From: Bacteroidales bacterium
GTDB taxonomy: Bacteria; Bacteroidota; Bacteroidia; Bacteroidales; PWNQ01
NCBI GenBank assembly: GCA_021740245.1
Contig: JAIPAE010000006.1
Coordinates: 1 to 42,988 of the forward strand
Direction: 5' to 3'
Length of the DNA stretch: 42,988 nt
In this document: in pieces, positions 17,408 to 42,988 of the stretch
How positions within the stretch are numbered: the stretch's first letter is position 1
How the letters are laid out: the number at the start of each line of letters is the position of its first letter
Position numbers and translations under genes: made by a program
Notes under the pieces: model-generated
What the model was told of the DNA's origin: nothing
Databases searched by the model: none
The model's input: the letters and a program-made list of their open reading frames with translations, nothing else

Positions 17408-17596
17408 ATGGCACATCCGAAGCGAAAAACATCGAAGACAAGAAGGGATAAGAGAAGAACCCATTACAAGGCAACCAAACCAACCTTTATGACATGCTCA
17501 AATTGTAGTTCTCCGGTTCTCTTTCACCGTGTCTGTAGTGAATGTGGACATTACAAAGGTGTGAAGGTGATCGAAACAGAAGAAGATATAATTTAG
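17408..17596 (+). CDS. rpmF: 50S ribosomal protein L32
   Basis: This is a large-subunit ribosomal protein. The 62-aa sequence has the usual start MAHPKRKTSKTRRDKRR and a zinc ribbon with all four Cys (Cys30, 33, 43, 46; CSNC, CSEC). It therefore belongs to the zinc-binding C+ type, not a zinc-independent paralogue. The position between yceD and plsX is the widely conserved arrangement. Confidence 0.97.
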   Translation: MAHPKRKTSKTRRDKRRTHYKATKPTFMTCSNCSSPVLFHRVCSECGHYKGVKVIETEEDII

Positions 17597-17616
17597 TATT
17601 TAAAGTTGAATTTCAT

Positions 17617-18570
17617 ATGAGATTCGGTATCGATGCAATGGGAGGTGATAATGCGCCATGGGCAGTAATAGAAGGTGCTATAGAAGCTCAGAAAACGTTA
17701 CAGACTGAAGATACTATCGTATTAATCGGGGATGAAGAGCAAATATCAAACCTGCTCAATCAAAACAATCACTCAGGAAAAGGTATAGAAGTTGTACATG
17801 CATCCCAGATAATTGAAATGAACGACCAGCCTACCCGTGCTTTCTCATCAAAAAAAGATTCCAGTATTAATACAGGTTTCCGCATGCTTAAAGAAGGCCT
17901 GCTGGACAGTTTTGCTAGTGCCGGTAATACTGGAGCTATGCTGGTCGGGTCTTTTTATGAAATCGGAGTAATTCAGGGAATACTAAGGCCAACAACTACA
18001 GCGCTTGTCCCGAAAAAAAACGGTAAAAATTCCATACTGCTTGACGTCGGAACAAATCCAGATGTCAAACCTGATGTGCTTAATCAATTTGCCGTTTTAG
18101 GAGCATTATATGCTGAATTCTTTATAGGTATTAAAGAACCAAAAGTCGGATTACTAAATATCGGTGCTGAAGAGAAAAAAGGTAATATCCTGGTTCAGTC
18201 AACCTTTCCCTTATTAAAGGATAATAAAGGGATTAACTTTATTGGGAACATCGAAGGACGGGATATTTTTGGAGATAAAGCAGATGTGATTGTTTGTGAT
18301 GGTTTTACAGGTAATATTGTTTTAAAACAACTGGAAGCATTCCATGAAATTATGGCCAGAAATTATGCTGATGATCCTTTCACAAAACGTATGGATTTTG
18401 AAAATTTCGGTGCTACACCGGTAATCGGCATTAACAAACCTGTACTTATAGCACATGGGGTTTCAGGTGCAAAGGCATTTAAAAACATGATTATCAACTC
18501 TAAAAAATTGATAAATGCCAATTTAAAAGAAAAAATTCGGCAAAAATTAGCGAAAAGTGTCGTTCTGTAA
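17617..18570 (+). CDS. plsX: Phosphate acyltransferase PlsX
   Basis: PlsX makes acyl-phosphate from acyl-ACP, the first step of bacterial phospholipid synthesis by the PlsX/PlsY route, as a peripheral membrane enzyme. The natural start is the ATG at 17617, which gives the family's MRFGIDAMGGDNAP N-terminus and 317 aa. An in-frame upstream start at 17542 lies within rpmF and adds unrelated residues. Family motifs seen include GNTGAML, LLDVGTNPD, NIGAEEKKGN and DGFTGNIVLK. It lies 20 bp after rpmF and 40 bp before fabH. Confidence 0.95.
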   Translation: MRFGIDAMGGDNAPWAVIEGAIEAQKTLQTEDTIVLIGDEEQISNLLNQNNHSGKGIEVVHASQIIEMNDQPTRAFSSKKDSSINTGFRMLKEGLLDSFASAGNTGAMLVGSFYEIGVIQGILRPTTTALVPKKNGKNSILLDVGTNPDVKPDVLNQFAVLGALYAEFFIGIKEPKVGLLNIGAEEKKGNILVQSTFPLLKDNKGINFIGNIEGRDIFGDKADVIVCDGFTGNIVLKQLEAFHEIMARNYADDPFTKRMDFENFGATPVIGINKPVLIAHGVSGAKAFKNMIINSKKLINANLKEKIRQKLAKSVVL

Positions 18571-18610
18571 TTTTTTATAATTTTACGCCATTTCAAATGG
18601 AGGATAATAA

Positions 18611-19609
18611 ATGACAAAGATTAGGGCAGCTATCACAGGGGTAGGAGGTTACCTTCCTGATTATGTGCTCACAAACTATGATTTAAGTCAACTGGTGGAT
18701 ACTTCAGATGAATGGATAATGACCCGAATCGGTATCAAAACACGCCATATAGAAAAAACCAAAGGCAAAGGAACATCAGATATCGCCGTTCCTGCAATAA
18801 AAGAATTACTGGAAAAAACAAATACAACACCGGAAGAGATTGATTTTTTATTATGCGCAACAGTGACCCCGGATCATCAATTTCCGGCAACAGCCAATAT
18901 CATAAGTGATAAGATGGGCATAAAAAATGCATTCTCTTATGATCTGAATGCCGGATGCTCCGGATTTTTATATGCTTTGGAAACAGCAAACCGTTTTATA
19001 GAATCCGGTCAATATAAAAAAGTTATTGTAGTAGGAGCTGAAAAGATGTCCTCGATTGTAGATTATACAGACCGTAGCACATGTCCAATTTTTGGAGATG
19101 GTGCCGGGGCTGTATTGCTCGAACCGGTAGAAGAAGAATTAGGAATCATTGACAGTATGTTACAAAGCGATGGCGCCGGGCGTATACATTTGCATCAGAA
19201 AGCAGGTGGTTCCGTTATGCCGGCCTCAGAAGAATCTGTTAAAAACAGGCTTCATTTTATTTACCAGGAAGGACAACCTGTATTTAAAGCTGCTGTTGCT
19301 AATATGGCTGATACTTCCGTAAAAATGATGGAAAAACATAATATCGCTTCAGACGAATTGGACTGGCTTGTGCCTCACCAGGCAAATATGCGGATAATCG
19401 AAGCCACAGCCCGACGAATGGGCATCAAAAGAGAACAGGTCATGATTAATATCCAACGATATGGTAATACTACTGCTGCAACATTACCGCTATGCCTCTG
19501 GGACTATGAAAAACAACTTAAAAAGGGTGATAAGCTTATTCTATCAACATTTGGAGCCGGTTTTACATGGGGCTCTATCTATTTGAAGTGGGCTTATGAC
19601 GGTGCTTAA
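18611..19609 (+). CDS. fabH: 3-oxoacyl-ACP synthase III (FabH)
   Basis: FabH starts fatty acid synthesis by condensing an acyl-CoA primer with malonyl-ACP in the cytoplasm. The 332-aa protein has the full Cys-His-Asn triad: Cys116 (NAGCSGF), His256 (PHQAN) and Asn286 (YGNTTAAT). A purine-rich ribosome-binding site (GGAGG) precedes the ATG. It is the last gene of the yceD-rpmF-plsX-fabH operon, which is closed by the hairpin at 19628. Confidence 0.96.
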   Translation: MTKIRAAITGVGGYLPDYVLTNYDLSQLVDTSDEWIMTRIGIKTRHIEKTKGKGTSDIAVPAIKELLEKTNTTPEEIDFLLCATVTPDHQFPATANIISDKMGIKNAFSYDLNAGCSGFLYALETANRFIESGQYKKVIVVGAEKMSSIVDYTDRSTCPIFGDGAGAVLLEPVEEELGIIDSMLQSDGAGRIHLHQKAGGSVMPASEESVKNRLHFIYQEGQPVFKAAVANMADTSVKMMEKHNIASDELDWLVPHQANMRIIEATARRMGIKREQVMINIQRYGNTTAATLPLCLWDYEKQLKKGDKLILSTFGAGFTWGSIYLKWAYDGA

Positions 19610-19765: not shown

Positions 19766-19773
19766 TATTTTTG
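19766..19773 (+). promoter_or_regulatory. -7 element upstream of gatE-gatD
   Basis: TATTTTTG matches TAnnTTTG, 34 nt before the gatE ATG. TTTC at 19743-19746, 19 nt upstream, is a near-match to the TTTG -33 box. If real, this archaeal-type gene pair uses an ordinary Bacteroidota promoter. Confidence 0.45.
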
Positions 19774-19807: not shown

Positions 19808-21793
19808 ATGTCAAATAAATTAAACCCCAAATCGAACTTCTTAAAATCAAAAGAGAAGATCGGTTATGTAAACCGAAAAGATGCCATACAAAAAGATTAT
19901 GATCGTATTGGATTTATGTCGGGATTAGAAGTTCATCAACAACTATTAACTAAAAGCAAATTGTTTTGCCGTTGTCCTGCAGGAATATATCATGATAATG
20001 ACAACTTTGATGCAGAATTAATCCGTCACATGCGCCCAACATTGAGCGAGTTAGGAGAGTATGACGGTACTGCTCTTATGGAATTTAAGACCCGGAAAGA
20101 GATCGTCTACAGGATCAATAATGAGAATGCCTGTACCTATGAAGTAGATGATACACCTCCATTTCCGATTGATAAAGAAGCTTTGGATATTTCAATTCAG
20201 ATATCGTTGCTTTCCAAACTGAATATTGTTGGTGAAGTGCATGTAACCCGCAAACAATATCTGGATGGTAGTATTCCAACCGGATTTCAAAGAACAGCAA
20301 TTATTGGTGTAGAAGGAGGAATTCCTTTAAAAAACAAGAATGTACGTTTAATTCAATTAAGCCTTGAAGAAGATTCCTGTCGTGAAATTTCCGATATAGG
20401 ACATACACGGGTTTTTAAAACAGACCGGCTTGGAATGCCACTGATCGAAACAGTAACGTACCCGGATATGGTCAATCCTGATGAAGTGAAAGAAGCATGT
20501 GACTATATTCGTTTTCTTAATCGTAGTACCGGAAGAGTCCGAACCGGCATAGGAGCCGGACGGCAGGATGTAAACGTAAGTTGCAAAGGTGGATCACGTG
20601 TGGAAATTAAAGGTGTTGCACATACAAAATGGATACCAGAACTGACACACATTGAAGCATACCGCCAGTATGCTTTATTGCACATTCGGGAAGAACTGAA
20701 AGAGCGAATATCAGACCCGGATAATTACACTATTCAACATAAAGAACTGGATTTCTACTCCTTTGAATTTGATCAGATTTCAGCAATAAAAAACGCAAAA
20801 CTCAACAATCAAAGAATTATTGCTGTCAATTTACCAGGTTTTAAGGGATTATTATCTCATTTTACCCAACCCACACAATGCTTTGCAGATGAATTTTCAG
20901 GTCGTTTAAAAGTCGTTGCTTGTTTAGAACACCCCAATATGACTCACAGTGAGGCACTGGAACCGGAAATAAGGGATGAAGACTGGGAAAAGATAAAAAA
21001 ACAACTTGAAGCAGAAGAACAGGATGCTCAGATCGTTTTCTGGGCTCCGGACGATGATGTAAAAACTGCACTGGAAACTATTGAAGAACGCTGTCAAATG
21101 GCTTTTGATGGTGTACCTGAAGAAACCCGGAAATCATTCATAAATGGATCAACAATATTTGAACGTGTCCTTCCCGGTGCAGATAGAATGTATCCGGATA
21201 CTGATACCGCTCCAATTCCTCTGGAAGACAAGTACATTGAAATTTTACGGAAAAATTTGCCACTGGAAGTTATTGAGCGATATCAACAACTTAAAAAATG
21301 GAATGTACCGGAAGATACTTATCAATATATCTTTTCAAAAAATTTGTACCCTGTAATTGTTGAACTCGTTGAAAAGTCCGGATTAAAACCTTCCTTTGCC
21401 GGAACGCTTATCGGACACCAGCTAAAATTTGTTGAAGGACACTACGAAAAAGGAGAACAGTTTGACTATTTTAAACTGGTGGATTTGTTTCAGTTTTTAT
21501 CCAAAGAAAAACTATCATATAACTTAGCCAAACAGATGCTACCCGTACTATATGAACATCCTAAAATGGATTTTGACTCTATCCTTACCAGTTTAGATTT
21601 CAAACGAATTCCACAAAAAGATATCATCGCCAGGATACCTTTTCTTAGTGAAAAGTTTGAAGAAATCAAGCAAAAAGAAGGAACAGAATACAAGGTCCAT
21701 TGGATAATGGGAGAATTAAGAAAACAAGCAACAGGTAATATGAAATATACTGACTTGCAGAAAGAGATCAAAAAACAAATCGCCACCAGTTAA
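19808..21793 (+). CDS. gatE: Glu-tRNA(Gln) amidotransferase subunit E (archaeal-type)
   Basis: GatE is the kinase/amidotransferase subunit of GatDE, which converts Glu-tRNA(Gln) to Gln-tRNA(Gln). The 661-aa protein is near archaeal GatE length and far longer than bacterial GatB (about 480 aa). The GatB-like cradle begins with GLEVHQQLLTKSKLFCRCP at about 39-57 and includes YLDGSIPTGFQRT, STGRVRTGIGAGRQDVNVS and GSRVEIKGVAH. An AspRS-like insertion of the sort found only in GatE lies at about 310-455 (AVNLPGFKGLLSH), closing with PGADRMYPDTDTAPI near 456-470. A YqeY-like tail fills about 530-661. gatD follows after 21 bp. GatE is classically archaeal, so its presence in a bacterium is the striking point. 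GatB is unlikely given the insertion and partner. Confidence 0.9.
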   Translation: MSNKLNPKSNFLKSKEKIGYVNRKDAIQKDYDRIGFMSGLEVHQQLLTKSKLFCRCPAGIYHDNDNFDAELIRHMRPTLSELGEYDGTALMEFKTRKEIVYRINNENACTYEVDDTPPFPIDKEALDISIQISLLSKLNIVGEVHVTRKQYLDGSIPTGFQRTAIIGVEGGIPLKNKNVRLIQLSLEEDSCREISDIGHTRVFKTDRLGMPLIETVTYPDMVNPDEVKEACDYIRFLNRSTGRVRTGIGAGRQDVNVSCKGGSRVEIKGVAHTKWIPELTHIEAYRQYALLHIREELKERISDPDNYTIQHKELDFYSFEFDQISAIKNAKLNNQRIIAVNLPGFKGLLSHFTQPTQCFADEFSGRLKVVACLEHPNMTHSEALEPEIRDEDWEKIKKQLEAEEQDAQIVFWAPDDDVKTALETIEERCQMAFDGVPEETRKSFINGSTIFERVLPGADRMYPDTDTAPIPLEDKYIEILRKNLPLEVIERYQQLKKWNVPEDTYQYIFSKNLYPVIVELVEKSGLKPSFAGTLIGHQLKFVEGHYEKGEQFDYFKLVDLFQFLSKEKLSYNLAKQMLPVLYEHPKMDFDSILTSLDFKRIPQKDIIARIPFLSEKFEEIKQKEGTEYKVHWIMGELRKQATGNMKYTDLQKEIKKQIATS

Positions 21794-21814
21794 GAATTCA
21801 GAAAACAAAAAATC

Positions 21815-23200
21815 ATGACTAACGATATTTTTCAGGGATATAAAGGACGAGCACTGGAAGTTTTAAAAAATTACAACGTTCGGGTATGGGGCAAGGCCAA
21901 AGTAGAAACAACCCGTGGAAATTTTGAGGGCACGGTTTTACCACGATCCGAGAATGATGATGACAAACATATTGTCATGAAAATCGCCACAGGCTATAAC
22001 ATTGGTATTGATACAGATACAATAAACAATATGACAGAGGAAGGTTATAAAAAAGCCAATTATGCCATCCCTGAGAAAGAATTTCCCTACAGCGATAAAA
22101 ACCCAAATGTTAAGCTATTTGGCACAGGAGGAACAATAGCATCCAGATTGGATTACAGGACAGGCGCCGTAATTCCAGCTTTTTCGCCCGGAGAATTATA
22201 TGGTGCAGTTCCGGAACTTGCAGATATTTGTAATATTGATACGGAGAAAGTTTTTGCTGTTTTCAGTGAGAATATGGGGCCCAAACAATATATTGCTTTA
22301 GCCAAAGCCATAGGAAAAGAGATAGAAAACGGTATTGATGGAATCATGATCGGCCATGGAACAGATACACTTCACCATACCGGAGCTGCCCTTACGTTCA
22401 TGGTTCAGAATTCGCCGGTTCCTATAGTCTTAGTAGGTTCACAGCGCTCTTCCGATCGTCCCAGCTCAGATGCTGCGCTTAACCTGATGCATGCAGCCAG
22501 AACTGCCGGGCATGGAGACATTGCTGAAACTCTTGTCTGTATGTTCGGCCCCACGTCCGATGAGTATGGATTGCTTCATAAAGGGACACGTGTGAGAAAA
22601 ATGCACTCTTCCTACAGGTCCACTTTCCGAACTATTGGCGACATTCCGGTTGCTACGGTAATAAAAGATGCTGTTCATCCTATCCATAAACGATATAACC
22701 CAAGAAGAAAAGACCGAAATGTAATCATCAAACCCTATTTTGATGACCGCGTAACTATGCTTTATTATTATCCGGGAATGAAACCTGATACTATAGATTC
22801 ATTGGTTGATAATGGTTATAAGGGTATTGTTTTTGTAGGTACAGGACTTGGCCATGTGAATAAAGAACTCTATCCGGCTATTGAGCGAGCTCAGGCTAAA
22901 GGTGTTCATATGTACATGACATTGCAAACCCTCTGGGGATATGTTCATATGTTCGTCTATGACACCGGGCGCGACATGATGGCTAAGGGAATTATCCCAG
23001 CCGGAAATATGCTGCCGGAAGTAGCCTTTATTAAACTCGGCTGGGCTCTTGGCCAAACACAAGACCCGGAAGAAGTTAAAAAATTAATGCTTACTCCAAT
23101 TAATGATGAAATAACCGAACGTGAACCTTATAACGGTTACCTGATATATCAGGGAGGAATTCCTGAAGTTGAGGAATTCATTAAAAAAGTGCATAAATAA
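21815..23200 (+). CDS. gatD: Glu-tRNA(Gln) amidotransferase subunit D (archaeal-type glutaminase)
   Basis: GatD is the asparaginase-like subunit that frees ammonia from an amide donor and feeds it to GatE. The 461-aa protein has the short N-terminal SH3-like domain that marks GatD off from plain asparaginase (LPRSENDDDKHIVMKI, TGYNIGID; about 1-90). The type I asparaginase fold follows. The catalytic residues are present: Thr107 (FGTGGTIAS), Thr183-Asp184 (HGTDT) and Lys262 (RVRKMHSS). GSQRSSDRPSSDAALN is also typical of GatD. It is encoded 21 bp after gatE, as expected for an obligate complex. L-asparaginase is a weaker alternative because of the N-terminal domain and partner gene. Confidence 0.92.
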   Translation: MTNDIFQGYKGRALEVLKNYNVRVWGKAKVETTRGNFEGTVLPRSENDDDKHIVMKIATGYNIGIDTDTINNMTEEGYKKANYAIPEKEFPYSDKNPNVKLFGTGGTIASRLDYRTGAVIPAFSPGELYGAVPELADICNIDTEKVFAVFSENMGPKQYIALAKAIGKEIENGIDGIMIGHGTDTLHHTGAALTFMVQNSPVPIVLVGSQRSSDRPSSDAALNLMHAARTAGHGDIAETLVCMFGPTSDEYGLLHKGTRVRKMHSSYRSTFRTIGDIPVATVIKDAVHPIHKRYNPRRKDRNVIIKPYFDDRVTMLYYYPGMKPDTIDSLVDNGYKGIVFVGTGLGHVNKELYPAIERAQAKGVHMYMTLQTLWGYVHMFVYDTGRDMMAKGIIPAGNMLPEVAFIKLGWALGQTQDPEEVKKLMLTPINDEITEREPYNGYLIYQGGIPEVEEFIKKVHK

Positions 23201-35626: not shown

Positions 35627-36556
35627 CTAATTAGCAGGTGTTTTCACAGGATATTGATTTTTTAATAAATTTTCAAAATGCATTTTTTGCTTTTTGTTCA
35701 GTTGGGAATTTTCTATAACGCGCATTCTTATTTCTTTCAAATCCGGTGAATAATTCGGATTTATGGCTTTTTTGATTTTATGATAATAAAAATTAAAAAT
35801 AAAATTCCCGGGATAACTGTGATATAACAATTGAGCATATAAAAATGCTTTTTGGGGGTTTTTCTCCAGTTCAAACCATATCTTCATCAGAAAATAGCTG
35901 GCTTCGGTTCTTATAATTTTATCAGGGGAATTTGCAGCTTTATCCAAATAACGTAATCCAGCTTTTGAATTTCCCTTTTTGTAAAACTTAAGAAATGGTC
36001 GTAGCAAAATATATTCATCATATGCATAGCCAAACAGGTAAAAATATAAACCATCAATTAAAAGATAAGGCGCATAAGTAGTGTCATTAAATGTGGGTTC
36101 TAACAGGTGGTAGTAGTTGCGTATTGCCTTGAATGCAGCAAAATATTCCTCTTCATCCATTGTCAGTCTCGTCATATAAGCATAATGCATAATACGCAAA
36201 AAACGAGCTTCTTTTTCATCCAACAGATTATCGCAATAATGCAAATGTTGATTTAAGTTTTCGCGATAATCATTTCTAAATTCATCGTCAGTAGAACCGG
36301 CAAATATTTCCCATAATTGAATATTGGATACTGTAAAATAATACCAGGCATTATTAGTATCATTTTCAATACTACTGCGAACTAATCTATTCGCCTTTTT
36401 AAATTGAAAATTATACATTGCGCTGAAAGCCGACTTTACATTTTTATCCACTTGCTGATTATGGATAGAAAACTGAGCCACAGCACACAATGGTAATCCT
36501 GAAAGCCAAACAATGATCAATACAACAAATAACTTATATGGAATTAAAAGCCTCAT
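35627..36556 (-). CDS. Exported TPR-like helical protein, function unknown
   Basis: The chosen start gives a signal peptide (MRLLIPYKLFVVLIIVWLSG, cleaved near CAVAQ) and 309 aa. A start at 36604 would add 16 residues ahead of it and overlap the upstream gene. The mature part is helical and rich in aromatic residues, with short repeated segments (FSAMYNFQFKKANRLVRSSI, NSKAGLRYLDKAANS, NPQKAFLYAQLLYHSYP) that look like degenerate TPRs. No enzyme motif was found. It is the last of six genes of one operon and probably works with the neighbouring TPR proteins and the YidD-like protein. I do not recognise the family. Confidence 0.65.
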   Translation of the reverse strand: MRLLIPYKLFVVLIIVWLSGLPLCAVAQFSIHNQQVDKNVKSAFSAMYNFQFKKANRLVRSSIENDTNNAWYYFTVSNIQLWEIFAGSTDDEFRNDYRENLNQHLHYCDNLLDEKEARFLRIMHYAYMTRLTMDEEEYFAAFKAIRNYYHLLEPTFNDTTYAPYLLIDGLYFYLFGYAYDEYILLRPFLKFYKKGNSKAGLRYLDKAANSPDKIIRTEASYFLMKIWFELEKNPQKAFLYAQLLYHSYPGNFIFNFYYHKIKKAINPNYSPDLKEIRMRVIENSQLNKKQKMHFENLLKNQYPVKTPAN

Positions 36557-36581
36557 TATTTGTATCTTATCAACTATAATT

Positions 36582-37445
36582 TCATTGGTTTGCAAAATTC
36601 CCATTCTTTTCTTTCATCATTAAAGAAAAAATTTGGATTAAAACTTTATCTCTTTTTTCATTTTGCCTTTCCATAGCAATTTTTTCAGCTCTGTTAAATC
36701 CACCGGTATAATATCTTTGAAACCAAGGACCAATACTGGTAAAAGCATTAAAAAATGTGTGCCGTTTGGCAATATATAAAAAACTAGCGGCCAACCCACT
36801 ATTTAACAAAAAAGAATTAGCGGCATTAAACGCATCTCCGGCATAAAGCTGCCCAAGTCCGGGTATTACGATGCTTAATATTTTTGCGAGTTTGGGAGAT
36901 GGTCTGTTAAATTTCACGGAATTTAAAACCTTTGAAACATCGTCATAATACTCATGTCCCCGGGCAGCATTAAGAAAGTATTCTTTTGCATCATCATATT
37001 TTTTTATCTTTACATGGATAACTCCCATATAGAAGTTATATTTATCCATGAAATAATCAGAAGAATCCTGGTTTCGGGCTGAAAAAACTTTTATCAAAGC
37101 CTTTTGGGGCTCATCTAAAAGAAGATGACAAAAAGCAATTTTATAAAGATGCTCATTATAAGCACTATCGCTATTTGTTGTGTTTAAAGAAACATCGTAA
37201 AAAAACAAACTTTCTTTGTAATTTCCGTTCATTAATTCACTTTTTGCAATTTTGGGATAAACATAAGCCTGAATAGAATCATCTCCAAAAAAAGCAACCC
37301 GTTTATATAGCTTAGCAGCCTCTTCAAAGTTGTCCAGGGCAAACATATTATCACCCAGCTCCACTGTTTCTTTTTGTGTTTGTGCAGAAACGCTGCAAGC
37401 AAAAGCAAAAAGACTAAATGCTATTATAGAAAACGCCTTGTACAC
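36582..37445 (-). CDS. Exported TPR protein with C-terminal PGLGQLYAG membrane region
   Basis: The 287-aa protein has a signal peptide (MYKAFSIIAFSLFAFACSVSA, then Q). TPR-like repeats fill about 25-175 (NMFALDNFEEAAKLYKRVAF, NGNYKESLFFYDVSLNT, IKKYDDAKEYFLNAAR). The C-terminal part begins with KILSIVIPGLGQLYAGD and includes hydrophobic stretches and YYTGGFNRAEKIA. The same layout, with the motif ILSxVxPGxGxxYxG, occurs in the next gene upstream, so the two look like paralogues. It overlaps that gene by 32 bp. The PGxGxxYxG motif resembles that of small membrane families such as DUF5683; role unknown. Confidence 0.68.
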   Translation of the reverse strand: MYKAFSIIAFSLFAFACSVSAQTQKETVELGDNMFALDNFEEAAKLYKRVAFFGDDSIQAYVYPKIAKSELMNGNYKESLFFYDVSLNTTNSDSAYNEHLYKIAFCHLLLDEPQKALIKVFSARNQDSSDYFMDKYNFYMGVIHVKIKKYDDAKEYFLNAARGHEYYDDVSKVLNSVKFNRPSPKLAKILSIVIPGLGQLYAGDAFNAANSFLLNSGLAASFLYIAKRHTFFNAFTSIGPWFQRYYTGGFNRAEKIAMERQNEKRDKVLIQIFSLMMKEKNGNFANQ

Positions 37446-38262
37446 TTTCCCGGATTCTGTTTTTATTATTGAAATTATAGCGATTTGCGGCTTTTACACT
37501 ACCATGAATATTTCCGAAATAAAATCCGACACCAATTGCACCAAATATCCAGCCATATACGCTTTCAGTGCCATATTTTTCAAATCCTTTGTAGGATTGA
37601 TACGCCGAAGAACTAACCATAATCAGTGATATTAATCCATTTTCCCAATTTCCCGTATAAACTTTCCCTGCTCCAGGCAAAACTGTTGATAATATACCAC
37701 TTAATAAAGGACTTTTATATTTTAGGTTCTCGCCTTGCTCTGATAATTTCATTAACGATTTGAATTCAGGTCTATTGAAATCATGGTTATCACTGAGCAA
37801 TTCGCGGGCCCTTTCATATTTATCATTTAGCAGAAGTATTGTTGAGGAAAGCAATATTTTATCGTCTGATCTCAAAACAGGATTTTCAGAAATATCCTTT
37901 ATCCATATTGTATCAGCTTTATCAAGTATTCTAAGTATATAAACTTCTTTAGCAATATCCGGTGACTGTTTATAGGGTTTATCCCACAAATTATCCATAC
38001 GTTCTAAAGCAGATTCGGTTTTCCCTGCTTTTCTGTATGCTTTAACCAAACGAAGTTTTATGTTGTCTTCTTCTGAATACTTAAAAATAAACCGTTCAAA
38101 TTCAGATATTGCCTGTTTATAATCGCCAGATTGATATAAATAGTTAGCATACTTTAATGTATGTGTGCTATCAAATAAATCCTGGCTGTTCACTGTACGG
38201 GCAAAAATTAGAAGAATGCTGAAAATAATGATTAAAATCTTAAAGCTCTTCATACTGCGCAT
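37414..38262 (-). CDS. Exported TPR protein with C-terminal PGAGKVYTG membrane region
   Basis: The 282-aa protein has a signal peptide (MKSFKILIIIFSILLIFART, cleaved near NSQ). Starting at that Met (38253) instead of 38262 is equally plausible. TPR-like helices fill about 30-165 (NYLYQSGDYKQAISEFERFI, KAYRKAGKTESALERMDNLW). The C-terminal region has GILSTVLPGAGKVYTGNWEN, then hydrophobic segments and GNIHGSVKAANRYN, which lines up with YTGGFNRAEKIAMERQN in the downstream neighbour. It overlaps the yidD-like gene by about 20 bp and the next gene by 32 bp, so the three are probably translated together. Function unknown. Confidence 0.68.
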   Translation of the reverse strand: MRSMKSFKILIIIFSILLIFARTVNSQDLFDSTHTLKYANYLYQSGDYKQAISEFERFIFKYSEEDNIKLRLVKAYRKAGKTESALERMDNLWDKPYKQSPDIAKEVYILRILDKADTIWIKDISENPVLRSDDKILLSSTILLLNDKYERARELLSDNHDFNRPEFKSLMKLSEQGENLKYKSPLLSGILSTVLPGAGKVYTGNWENGLISLIMVSSSAYQSYKGFEKYGTESVYGWIFGAIGVGFYFGNIHGSVKAANRYNFNNKNRIRESVQGVFYNSI

Positions 38263-38641
38263 TTCTTACCGGATCAATTAAAAGTCCGTTTTGTTTGTCA
38301 ATTTTATATTCTGCCGGCCTTAAACCATTACAACGTGTAAGGCGATCGAGAGAATCCATGATACCATTTATTAACCCTTGTTTTTTAATTGATTGAATAG
38401 CATATTCCGAACAAGAAGGTGTAAAAACGCATGAATGATAATCCTGGGAAGAAACAAGTATCTTGTATAGTGAAAATAAGTTGCTTAAAACGCCCTGGCT
38501 TTCTTTCAATCTTTTGAAAGGAGAAACATGTTCGGATTGTTTTTCGTGTTGATCTTGCAATAGTTCTAATTCATTAAACGTTTGAGAATAGCCAAAACTT
38601 ATACTACCTAATGCCAGGATTATAATTATACATTTCTTCAT
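38240..38641 (-). CDS. yidD: YidD-like protein with an N-terminal signal peptide
   Basis: The 133-aa protein contains the YidD core (FTPSCSEYAIQSIKKQGLI, SLDRLTRCNGLRP), including the conserved Cys of PSCSEY and of TRCN. Ordinary YidD is 70-85 aa, cytoplasmic, attached to the inner membrane and aids YidC; it has no signal peptide and lies near rpmH-rnpA-yidC. This one has a signal sequence (MKKCIIIILALGSISFGYSQ) and a linker of about 50 residues before the core, and sits among genes for exported proteins. Its role is thus likely periplasmic or outer-envelope. It overlaps the upstream gene end by 38 bp. Confidence 0.78.
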   Translation of the reverse strand: MKKCIIIILALGSISFGYSQTFNELELLQDQHEKQSEHVSPFKRLKESQGVLSNLFSLYKILVSSQDYHSCVFTPSCSEYAIQSIKKQGLINGIMDSLDRLTRCNGLRPAEYKIDKQNGLLIDPVRNAQYEEL

Positions 38642-39299
38642 TGTTGGTGTTATTTATAATGATATCCGATAACTTGACCATTTGGTATATTTTTTTATTC
38701 TCAGAGTACATGATTTGTACTATTTCTGTGGGAACGCTCAAACCTTTAACTGTAGTATACTTTCTAAAAAACTGGCGGCTCATTATTTCATCATCCGGAG
38801 ATTTCATCACTACTCCATAAAGCTTATTATTAATAGTTGATGTCAGAATGTTACCTAATACTCCGACATTCGAAGGAGGAACCCATGTAGTAATAACCAT
38901 ATCTTCCTCTTTTTCGGTGCTTTCAATGCTATAATTGCTTTGACCTAAGCCAAAATCACTGAGACTACCTTCTAAAACCAGGTGGAATACTGTAGACTTG
39001 ACATACGGATTAACGGACATCTGGTGGGAAAACAAATTATCTTTATAAACACGTGTTACCGTATCCTCTGAAACCCAAACTTCGGGTTCGGGGAAACGAA
39101 TATCATAAACTAAAATTCCCGTGTTTTTATCATAGTAAACACGCCCTAATGTTAAACTTCCTTTTTCTTCGTCCTTTGTTTTGGATTTAATAGAAAACTC
39201 AGCTTCGAACCTGAAAAAAAACTGCCCATAGGCTATTGTAGTATTTAAAAAAATAAAAAATAATACAATACCTATGAGCCGTAATTTCTTAATGTTCAT
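38604..39299 (-). CDS. Exported LolA/LolB-like beta-rich protein, function unknown
   Basis: The Met at 39299 gives a normal signal peptide (MNIKKLRLIGIVLFFIFLNT, cleaved near AYGQ) and 231 aa; a start at 39350 would add 17 residues and overlap the gene upstream. The mature part alternates hydrophobic and polar residues in beta-strand style (FFRFEAEFSIKSKTKDEEKG, SLTLGRVYYDKNTGILVYDI, GLSVPTEIVQIMYSENKKIY). This resembles outer-membrane lipoprotein-carrier folds (LolA, or DUF4292-like), which bind acyl chains. That is a fold-style guess, not a firm match. It is the second gene of the cluster. Confidence 0.55.
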   Translation of the reverse strand: MNIKKLRLIGIVLFFIFLNTTIAYGQFFFRFEAEFSIKSKTKDEEKGSLTLGRVYYDKNTGILVYDIRFPEPEVWVSEDTVTRVYKDNLFSHQMSVNPYVKSTVFHLVLEGSLSDFGLGQSNYSIESTEKEEDMVITTWVPPSNVGVLGNILTSTINNKLYGVVMKSPDDEIMSRQFFRKYTTVKGLSVPTEIVQIMYSENKKIYQMVKLSDIIINNTNNEEMYNYNPGIR

Positions 39300-39312
39300 C
39301 TTAATGAAGTAA

Positions 39313-39762
39313 TTATATTGCTGATGCTGAGCTAACGATCCATGAAACATAAGCTACATAAGCTAGTGCATAGACTGCTCCTCCTGCAAGACATCCCCAC
39401 AGCGCTTTTTTGGTTTCATCCGTATCTTCCGTTACAAAGTAAACAACACCAATTCCGGTTGCACTAAGGCAAAATCCCCATACAAAACTTGGAATTCCCA
39501 ATGGTGGTTTACCGCGACGGTAATAATTCATAAGATCAGGTGAGGCTGAAACATTTGCAATTAAACTATTGTCAGTTACTTCCAACATAGAATAAGTACT
39601 GTTTGTCTTAGAAACATGTGTTTCCAACTTGCTCAGCTCGGCAAATTCTTCATTTACTGCTTCTTCATCATACTCGAATAGATCTTTCTTCGAAGATGCA
39701 AATGCATTAAACGTACCCATAATAAATATGGCAGTTAATGCAAGAAGTACGAACTTTTTCAT
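39313..39762 (-). CDS. Small exported protein with two C-terminal membrane segments
   Basis: The 149-aa protein starts with a signal peptide (MKKFVLLALTAIFIMGTFNA, cleaved near FAS). An acidic stretch follows (DLFEYDEEAVNEEFAEL). The C-terminal half has two hydrophobic segments, at about 91-110 (PSFVWGFCLSATGIGVVYFV) and 121-147 (LWGCLAGGAVYALAYVAYVS). I do not recognise the family. It is the first gene of the six-gene cluster, directly behind a -7 element. Confidence 0.6.
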   Translation of the reverse strand: MKKFVLLALTAIFIMGTFNAFASSKKDLFEYDEEAVNEEFAELSKLETHVSKTNSTYSMLEVTDNSLIANVSASPDLMNYYRRGKPPLGIPSFVWGFCLSATGIGVVYFVTEDTDETKKALWGCLAGGAVYALAYVAYVSWIVSSASAI

Positions 39763-40544: not shown

Positions 40545-41591
40545 TTATAATCTTTTGTTTAACAATGCATCCCAACCCTGAGCTTTAATAGGATTAACAG
40601 ATTGATCCCTTGCGATGAGGTTGACACCGGCATTACGTTCTTTTATGTAGCCAACAACAGCAAAAGCTGGATTATCTTTAATCTTGTCATAATCGCTTTG
40701 GCTGATCGTAAACAACAATTCATAATCTTCACCCCCATTCATAGCTATAGTTGTGGGGTCCAGTTTCATTTCCTCAGCTATTTTTCCTGTTTGATGATCA
40801 ATGGGTAGCTTTTCTTCAATAATATCAGCCCCTGTGTCAGAGTTCTCACAAATATGCAGTATTTCAGATGCTAATCCATCAGAAATATCTATCATTGCAG
40901 TCGGTTTAACATTTAACTGTTGCAAAGCTTTAATAACATCCAGACGTGGCTCTGGCTTCAACTGTCTTTCAAGTATATACTCATATCCTTGTAGATCAGG
41001 CTGAACACCTTTACTCGCTTTAAACGCCTTTTTTTCACGTTCCAACACCATAAGTCCGGCATACGCAGCTCCCAATGTTCCACTCACACAAATCAAATCA
41101 TTTTCTTTTGCCCCTGACCGATAGACAATATTATCAGCCATAACCTGCCCAATCACTGCTACAGAAATAACCAACCCGTAGCGCGAAGTTGTAGTGTCAC
41201 CACCAACCAAATCAACGCCATAGGTTTCGCATGCCAGTTTTATTCCCTTGTATAATTCGTCCAGTGCTTCAACAGTATATCGACTGGAAATAGCCAGGCT
41301 AATTGTCACTTGTTTGGGCATTCCGTTCATTGCTGCAATATCCGAAAGATTTACTACTACAGCTTTATAGCCAAGATGTTTAAGAGGTGAATACGTAATA
41401 TCAAAATGAACTCCTTCCACAAGCATATCTGTAGAAATCAGTGTTTGATAAATTCCATTATTTATCACTGCTGCATCATCACCCGATCCAAAAATAGTGC
41501 TTTTATCTTTTATTTCCACATCTTTCATCAGATGATCAATCAGCCCGAACTCTCCTAATTCTGTCAGTGGTGTCGTACTGTTATCTCCCAT
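40545..41591 (-). CDS. thiL: Thiamine-monophosphate kinase
   Basis: ThiL phosphorylates thiamine monophosphate to thiamine diphosphate with ATP, the last step of cofactor synthesis. From the Met at 41591 the protein is 348 aa and begins MGDNSTTPLTELGEFGLI, matching the family. A longer frame to 41675 would start upstream of the promoter. Family motifs seen are GSGDDAAV, STDMLVEGVHFD, VVNLSDIAAMNG, GGDTT, DISDGLASE and GGEDYELLF, the metal- and nucleotide-binding acidic sites of the AIR-synthase-like fold. It is a single gene flanked by two copies of a palindromic repeat. Confidence 0.95.
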   Translation of the reverse strand: MGDNSTTPLTELGEFGLIDHLMKDVEIKDKSTIFGSGDDAAVINNGIYQTLISTDMLVEGVHFDITYSPLKHLGYKAVVVNLSDIAAMNGMPKQVTISLAISSRYTVEALDELYKGIKLACETYGVDLVGGDTTTSRYGLVISVAVIGQVMADNIVYRSGAKENDLICVSGTLGAAYAGLMVLEREKKAFKASKGVQPDLQGYEYILERQLKPEPRLDVIKALQQLNVKPTAMIDISDGLASEILHICENSDTGADIIEEKLPIDHQTGKIAEEMKLDPTTIAMNGGEDYELLFTISQSDYDKIKDNPAFAVVGYIKERNAGVNLIARDQSVNPIKAQGWDALLNKRL

Positions 41592-41610
41592 AATAATGCG
41601 TTTTATCAGG

Positions 41611-41618
41611 CAAAGATA
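41611..41618 (-). promoter_or_regulatory. -7 element upstream of thiL
   Basis: On the minus strand this is TATCTTTG, matching TAnnTTTG, 19 nt before the Met at 41591. It rules out the longer upstream start. No TTTG -33 box was found. Confidence 0.5.
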
Positions 41619-41690
41619 ATACATGAAATGGAAAGAACTATTGATACCCGTTATTTCTAAACAAGAGACCAACAAAGCCTGTATTAATCA

Positions 41691-41810
41691 TGCAATAAGT
41701 TTAGGTCAATGCAAGGCGTCGAAAGCCACAGACATTGTGTTCTATTTCAAAGTTTACCCTGTATTTATCGGCGGCTTTCGCAACGCAGCAGATAGCCTGA
41801 AATTATTGCA
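41691..41810. repeat. Palindromic repeat element, copy 2
   Basis: This is a 120-bp imperfect palindrome. The ends TGCAATAAGTTTAGG and CCTGAAATTATTGCA are inverted repeats (13 of 15 pair). Inside, GCGTCGAAAGCC pairs with GGCTTTCGCAACGC except for a 2-nt bulge. About 45 bp separate the inner arms. There is no open frame of interest. It lies between thiL and sufB. The structure suits a MITE/REPIN-like element or a transcribed hairpin. Confidence 0.65.
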
Positions 41811-42028
41811 CTCGTAAAAAATAAATAAAAATATTGTTTTATCTGTATACTCGTGTTATGCATTGATATATAGCTAAATGTAACTTTTTATTTATTTTTT
41901 TATGAATAGTACAGGAAAGAATAATCTTTGGAATATAAATAAAAGTCCTTCTATAAAACCAATAAATGTATGGCAAACTATTTATGCCTACAATTGTTGA
42001 CTTAATGCATTATAGAAAGCAAAGAAAG

Positions 42029-42060
42029 CTTGCAAATGCAGGTTTTCTTTTCTACTTTTG
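42029..42060 (+). promoter_or_regulatory. Promoter of sufB
   Basis: CTTG (42029-42032), then 20 nt, then TACTTTTG (42053-42060) fits the Bacteroidota consensus, 45 nt before the sufB ATG. The rest of 41811-42028 is AT-rich with nothing evident. Confidence 0.6.
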
Positions 42061-42105
42061 TGCACTAATTTTAATTTAATCTAAATAACGCATTTTTTAA
42101 AGCGT

Positions 42106-42988
42106 ATGGAAGAAAAGAATAACAAAAAAGAACATCAGGACAAGGTATTGAATGAGATGACAAATTCAGATTACAAATATGGATTTGTAACTGACATTGA
42201 AACTGATACTATTCCACATGGGTTGAATGAAAATGTGATACATCAGATTTCTAAAAAGAAAGATGAGCCCGAATGGTTATTAGACTACCGTTTGGATGCC
42301 TTTCATAAATTCATGAACATGCCCCAGCCTAACTGGGCACACCTGAAAATTCCACCAATTGATTTTCAGAATATTGTTTATTACTCAGCTCCAAAGACAA
42401 AACCCAAATATGAAAGTCTTGATGAGATAGACCCTGAATTGCTGGATACTTTCAACAAGCTTGGGATTCCATTAGAAGAACAGAAAGCTCTTTCAGGAGT
42501 TGCTGTTGACGCGGTTTTCGACAGTGTTTCTGTTAAAACTACCTTTCAGGATACCCTTGAAGAAAAAGGGATAGTTTTTTGTTCATTCAGCGAAGCTGTT
42601 CAAAAATATCCCAATTTAGTGCGTAAACATCTGGGAAGTGTTGTTCCATCGAACGATAATTATTTCGCAGCATTAAATTCAGCTGTTTTTTCCGATGGCT
42701 CTTTTTGTTATATCCCTAAAGGGGTGAGAAGTCCAGTGGAATTATCCACTTACTTCAGGATCAATGCAGCGAATACCGGTCAGTTTGAACGCACTTTAAT
42801 AGTAGCAGAAGATGATAGTTATGTCAGCTATCTGGAAGGATGCACTGCTCCTCAGCGAGATGAGAACCAGCTTCATGCAGCAATTGTAGAAATTGTTGCC
42901 ATGAAAGGGGCAGAAGTTAAATATTCTACTGTTCAGAACTGGTTCCCGGGAGACAAAGAAGGCAAAGGTGGTATATATAACTTTGTTA
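42106..42988 (+). CDS. sufB: Fe-S cluster assembly protein SufB (partial, 3' end outside window)
   Basis: SufB is the scaffold subunit of the SufBCD complex on which Fe-S clusters are built in the cytoplasm. The first 294 codons are present and the frame is open to the window edge. Residues include [77 protein letters not shown] and [18 protein letters not shown], all standard for SufB. The missing part should hold about 180-200 residues. sufC, sufD and sufS would be expected just beyond the window, supplying the Fe-S enzymes seen here (SdhB and the fused dehydrogenase). Confidence 0.96.

Follow-up and report, generated by a model that had tools for sequence, protein, structure and literature searches.

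GatDE-family amidotransferase genes in Bacteroidales genomes that, as a rule, also encode GlnRS

Results

The gatE and gatD genes and their surroundings

The window analysed here is the whole of a 42,988-nucleotide stretch of Bacteroidales DNA (contig JAIPAE010000006.1, assembly GCA_021740245.1). Two full-length open reading frames lie on one strand of it, 21 bp apart, and their products score above the cut-offs of the curated models for the two subunits of the GatDE amidotransferase, as the initial annotation had proposed. The features considered are the following.

17542..19609, + strand: plsX and fabH, upstream neighbours of gatE within the block that is collinear with congener G346
19766..19773, + strand: TATTTTTG, candidate -7 box of Bacteroidota type ahead of gatE; on its own no better than chance
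19808..21793, + strand: gatE, Glu-tRNA(Gln) amidotransferase subunit E (transamidase), 661 aa; NCBIfam GatE equivalogs, PF02934, PDB entries 2d6f and 1zq1, structure model, residues H43, E187 and E214
21815..23200, + strand: gatD, Glu-tRNA(Gln) amidotransferase subunit D, 461 aa; NCBIfam GatD equivalogs, PF18195, PF00710 and PF17763, PDB matches, residues T107, T183, D184 and K262
40545..42988: AIRS-family gene (- strand) and sufB/D-like gene (+ strand, cut by the contig end), a pair that stands beside glnS in G346

The GC content is even across gatED and like that of the neighbouring genes, in agreement with the base usage described initially. The proposed -7 box is present; however, it is not evidence by itself, because matches to TANNTTTG are about as frequent in the window as expected (60 observed vs 57.5). 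The source MAG is 66.6% complete and fragmented into 107 contigs, as might be the case for an archaeal/bacterial chimera or a contaminated assembly; however, G346 shares with the contig a collinear block of eight consecutive genes that starts with a PBP1A gene, includes plsX and fabH and ends with gatE and gatD, and one contig protein bears a T9SS sorting domain, which fits Bacteroidota. Furthermore, GatE recurs across the order, single-contig genomes included, and forms a bacterial clade (see below), so that a chimeric or contaminating origin can be dismissed with near certainty. The earlier suggestion that the pair is long settled in its bacterium is also borne out.

In nearly all loci with enough flanking sequence, gatE is followed directly by gatD. 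The locus of G392 has a 641-aa open reading frame between the two (L099:7348-9273), an apparent operon insertion. G334 has glnS, gatE and gatD consecutively on one strand, and the distance between glnS and gatE in G014 is 1.4 kb; these two neighbourhoods hint at joint use of GlnRS and GatDE. No other conserved neighbour gene was seen in the gatDE loci read. Elsewhere in the window, positions 35627-39762 form a block of GC 0.33 with six overlapping minus-strand ORFs that include TPR and YidD domains, and this block adjoins the place where the congener has glnS.

Assignment of the products to the GatDE family

In profile searches, the gatE product scored 421 bits against TIGR00134 (cut-off 320) and 480 against NF003107 (456), but at most 130 bits against the GatB models, the cut-offs of which are at least 315. 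The tail is weaker by sequence, with PF02637 below its cut-off. The gatD product scored 492 against TIGR02153 (324) and 493 against NF003217 (310), and the N-terminal domain described initially was recovered as GatD_N (PF18195) above its cut-off; by these family models it is a glutaminase with a type I asparaginase fold and a GatD_N domain. The best PDB matches of both proteins were 2d6f and 1zq1, both of them GatDE structures. The AlphaFold model of GatE (pLDDT 86) had GatE chains as its top matches (TM on target 0.78-0.81), followed by GatB chains (0.54-0.69), and in the model the insertion and the helical tail fold as in 1zq1 and 2d6f.

The catalytic residues are retained in both subunits. 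T107, T183, D184 and K262 of GatD are at the positions first reported and are invariant across the aligned archaeal and bacterial GatD sequences. H43, E187 and E214 of GatE align with H15, E157 and E184 of the Methanothermobacter protein, which we take to be its Mg site, and do not vary among 82 archaeal and 54 bacterial sequences. Judged by profiles and structure model together, the two products almost certainly belong to the GatDE family.

Distribution in the phylum and retention of the genes

GatE was found above cut-off in 22 of the 296 phylum genomes sampled, namely that of the window and 21 from other classes, and within the class only in the window's own order. There, GatE was present in 48 of 119 genomes, nearly all of them from different families, and in 153 (about 39%) of a set of 392 that was filtered at 90% completeness and that includes the window's own, less complete MAG. 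The question raised at the outset, whether related genomes share GatDE, is thus answered in the affirmative. However, on a GlnRS tree that comprised 105 genomes, presence and absence of GatE required 25 changes, compared to a mean of 34.6 with shuffled labels, and GatE is absent from some congeners of genomes that have it (G440 vs G329). This patchiness indicates that many relatives can do without the function, which counts against a second route to Gln-tRNA(Gln).

Such a pattern would also be consistent with a relic without current function that is being lost lineage by lineage. However, the reading frames are intact, the catalytic residues are invariant throughout, and, by the tree, retention of GatDE goes back further than the split of the order's sampled families. 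Furthermore, synonymous sites are saturated between congeners (pS ~0.76), yet the pN values are 0.14 (gatE) and 0.04 (gatD) and the GatD proteins are 93% identical. These data indicate strong purifying selection on both genes, and a relic is very improbable.

Phylogeny of GatE and GatD

A scan of named genomes gave 80 archaeal loci as nearest relatives of the Methanothermobacter GatE. The archaeal and the bacterial proteins in a tree of 91 GatE sequences were separated by a single branch with full support, and among the bacteria a clade of the window's order stood apart from a clade of other classes. When GatB was added as a distant outgroup, the GatE of each domain was still a clade (support 94 and 95), within a sample that lay outside the Asgard and DPANN archaea. 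The 661-aa protein grouped with GatE in trees with and without GatB; a placement with GatB, like a chimeric contig, had been named beforehand as a result that would overturn the assignment. The divergence of GatE was correlated with that of GlnRS (Mantel r 0.42, a value reached in 1 of 2000 permutations). In GatD, the order's bacteria have fixed residues at positions 244, 267, 269, 372 and 398, where archaea are fixed or nearly so for different residues, and the bacterial clade is therefore recognisable on sight.

The simplest reading of these sequences is that GatDE here would be an old bacterial gene pair, with mostly vertical inheritance and many losses. Recent import from a sampled archaeal lineage is not supported by the trees, and an ancient transfer from the Asgard or DPANN archaea, which the trees did not sample, may have taken place. 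The initial description of the pair as archaeal-type is consequently to be corrected in that the genes are not archaeal as such and belong to a separate bacterial clade. One genome of another class, G156 (L023), has a GatE of the type found in the window's order, with 943 bits to the window's GatE compared to 501-557 bits for the remaining genomes from other classes, and this suggests a transfer between classes.

Relation to GlnRS

The co-occurrence of GatE and GlnRS was counted from tables for genomes at least 90% complete. GlnRS was above cut-off in 146 of the 152 GatE-positive genomes of the order (96%; own MAG left out), and genomes without any GlnRS trace made up 5 of 152 with GatE vs 7 of 239 without it. 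The five are G329, G369, G521, G584 and G602, of which G584 and G602 are without GluRS matches as well, and congeners of G369 and G521 carry both GatE and GlnRS. Furthermore, gatE and glnS occur on one contig in the single-contig genomes G494, G574 and, from another class, G294, and the single-contig genomes G132 and G124 encode all three of GatE, GlnRS and a GatB-type protein (the GatCAB search covered GatB). These data indicate that GatDE does not generally stand in for GlnRS and does not track its absence, and the general replacement of GlnRS, one of three roles offered initially, was rejected. The absence of GlnRS that belongs to the archaeal indirect pathway is not the pattern of the order, nor was it seen in the congeners.

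The window's own species could differ, having lost GlnRS, so that, like archaea, it would make Gln-tRNA(Gln) through GluRS and GatDE alone. The initial annotation had called for a search for glnS, GatCAB and the GluRS type; in the own MAG, about 67% complete, neither GlnRS nor GatB, the GatCAB subunit covered, was matched, and the sole enzyme of the GluRS/GlnRS class found was the bacterial GltX. In G346, glnS stands beside the AIRS gene and the SufB/D-type gene; between the equivalent genes of the window, there are about 780 bp of non-coding DNA with neither glnS nor a remnant of it. Moreover, G329, G369 and G521 are relatives at least 90% complete that have GatE without GlnRS. However, the own MAG is a third short of complete, and the congeners G346 and G413 have GatE and GlnRS. 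The glnS of G413 sits at another place, so an empty site in the window was discarded as proof of loss. Given also that congeners of G369 and G521 have both enzymes and that GlnRS is not missing more often with GatE than without it, loss of GlnRS in this species is unlikely.

GluRS, tRNAs and related enzymes

The GluRS is of the bacterial single-copy type (GltX) and is nominally discriminating by its equivalent of Arg358. Accordingly, little Glu-tRNA(Gln) may be made, which counts against a second route. However, the Arg358 equivalent was present in every genome checked, 19 with GatE and 22 without it, as well as in the GluRS of G109, which has GatB and is without GlnRS; since the residue does not differ between genomes with GatE and genomes that lack it, this position was judged uninformative as to GluRS specificity.

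Archaeal GatDE reads the A1-U72 pair and the D-loop of tRNA-Gln (PMC9499178), and U1-A72 is the pair read by bacterial amidotransferases (PMC9976931). In the tRNA genes read, those of the window's own genome included, tRNA-Gln has U1-A72 and tRNA-Glu has G1-C72. That tRNA-Gln carries the pair read by bacterial amidotransferases speaks for a second route, whereas the archaeal A1-U72 is not found in these tRNA-Gln genes, and this counts against it. Two structural types of tRNA-Gln were observed in the order (L145, L148, L162, L164 and L165 vs L156 and L166): the first has an 8-nt D-loop, A22 and base 47, and the second has a 7-nt D-loop and U13.G22 and is without base 47. The CTG tRNA-Gln gene often adjoins glnS; in G343 both types are present, with one tRNA each. 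Among the matches listed, the 8-nt D-loop occurred in 36 of 45 genomes with GatE vs 17 of 49 without it (p 1e-5); as a signature of GatDE, tRNA-Gln type was not upheld over phylogenetically independent pairs (median p 0.22). A tRNA-SeC gene was predicted in the GatE-positive genome G369 (L139, G369:C6:61753-61844).

Glutamine synthetase family proteins were found in 115 of the 119 order genomes, and a missing glutamine synthetase was therefore discarded as the reason for GatDE. A glutamine-synthetase-like protein of about 500 aa, below the GlnA cut-off, occurs at L357:536-2038 (G000:C15) and order-wide, in 43 of 46 genomes with GatE vs 28 of 59 without it (p 2e-7), a link that phylogenetic correction leaves insecure (median p 0.125).

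AsnRS was above cut-off in 114 of the 119 order genomes, the own MAG included, and because it is near-universal, amidation of Asp-tRNA(Asn) is not needed and a role in making Asn-tRNA(Asn) was rejected. With respect to the other amidation offered initially, the Asp-tRNA(Asn) part is thus unlikely. That bacterial GatDE amidates a different aminoacyl-tRNA or a non-tRNA carboxylate would fit the substitutions fixed in bacterial GatD at positions 244, 267, 269, 372 and 398, the nominally discriminating GluRS and the presence of GlnRS, which makes the classical role look redundant. However, the catalytic residues and the tRNA-binding architecture are retained, Asp-tRNA(Asn) is a poor candidate, the loci read have no other conserved neighbour, and glnS is adjacent in two genomes; a different substrate is accordingly improbable.

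Proposed function

The reading that we prefer, with a probability of roughly two in three, is that GatDE would be a working amidotransferase beside GlnRS, converting Glu-tRNA(Gln) to Gln-tRNA(Gln) to provide either a parallel supply or a corrective step; it draws on sequence and on analogy with the archaeal enzyme, and of the three roles offered initially, a backup of GlnRS fits best. By the conserved residues and the archaeal mechanism, GatD would hydrolyse glutamine and the ammonia would pass to GatE, which, with ATP and Mg2+, would activate and amidate the Glu of Glu-tRNA(Gln) to give Gln-tRNA(Gln). The substrate would presumably come from the single GluRS charging tRNA(Gln) with Glu, and GatDE would provide the lineage with a second route or a rescue beside GlnRS. 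A broader proposal, which we put forward tentatively and at slightly less than even odds, is that GatDE is ancient in both bacteria and archaea and that the version of this phylum has become adapted to U1-A72, acting as a parallel or error-correcting route beside GlnRS.

Discussion

The pair resembles archaeal GatDE (Methanothermobacter, 2d6f; Pyrococcus abyssi, 1zq1) in its two subunits, domain order and adjacent genes, in the catalytic residues of both active sites and in the fold of GatE. In contrast to the archaeal enzyme, the bacterial GatE forms a separate clade, with about 32-36% identity to Methanothermobacter GatE, the bacterial GatD has fixed substitutions, and the host is a bacterium that as a rule has GlnRS, a bacterial GluRS and U1-A72 rather than A1-U72. 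With bacterial GatCAB it shares the reaction type, the U1-A72 tRNA and, between GatB and GatE, a common catalytic domain and a YqeY-type tail; however, the GatB models score far below cut-off on the window's GatE, tree and fold group that protein with GatE, and the glutaminase is the asparaginase-type GatD where GatCAB has GatA. Similarly, GatD has the core fold and the Thr/Thr/Asp/Lys active site of type I L-asparaginases, but differs from them in its GatD_N domain, its GatE partner and its higher scores with the GatD equivalogs.

In Thermus and Deinococcus, GatCAB is used for Asn. The situation there is similar in that an enzyme of the indirect route is retained beside direct synthetases (PMC4206432, PMC3927822); however, that enzyme is GatCAB, and here it is GatDE, with AsnRS present.

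The GatDE family itself is known, and the NCBI models would name both proteins, so that database annotation may already show bacterial GatDE. In the open-access literature, no paper was found that reports it. A 2014 survey of bacterial routes to Gln-tRNA lists most Bacteroidetes as GlnRS users, with GatDE unmentioned (PMC3927822), and a 2022 review, which regards GatDE as nowadays exclusive to archaea, names its co-evolution with its tRNA as a reason for archaea never having acquired GlnRS (PMC9499178). A bacterial GatDE clade that about 39% of the order's sampled genomes carry, as a rule together with GlnRS, contradicts the archaea-only statement. It also renders the co-evolution argument testable, because GatDE and GlnRS live here with the same U1-A72 tRNA-Gln, and it bears on the re-dating of the origin of GatDE. 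Altogether, these lineages offer a natural setting in which to ask whether amidotransferases correct mischarged Glu-tRNA(Gln).
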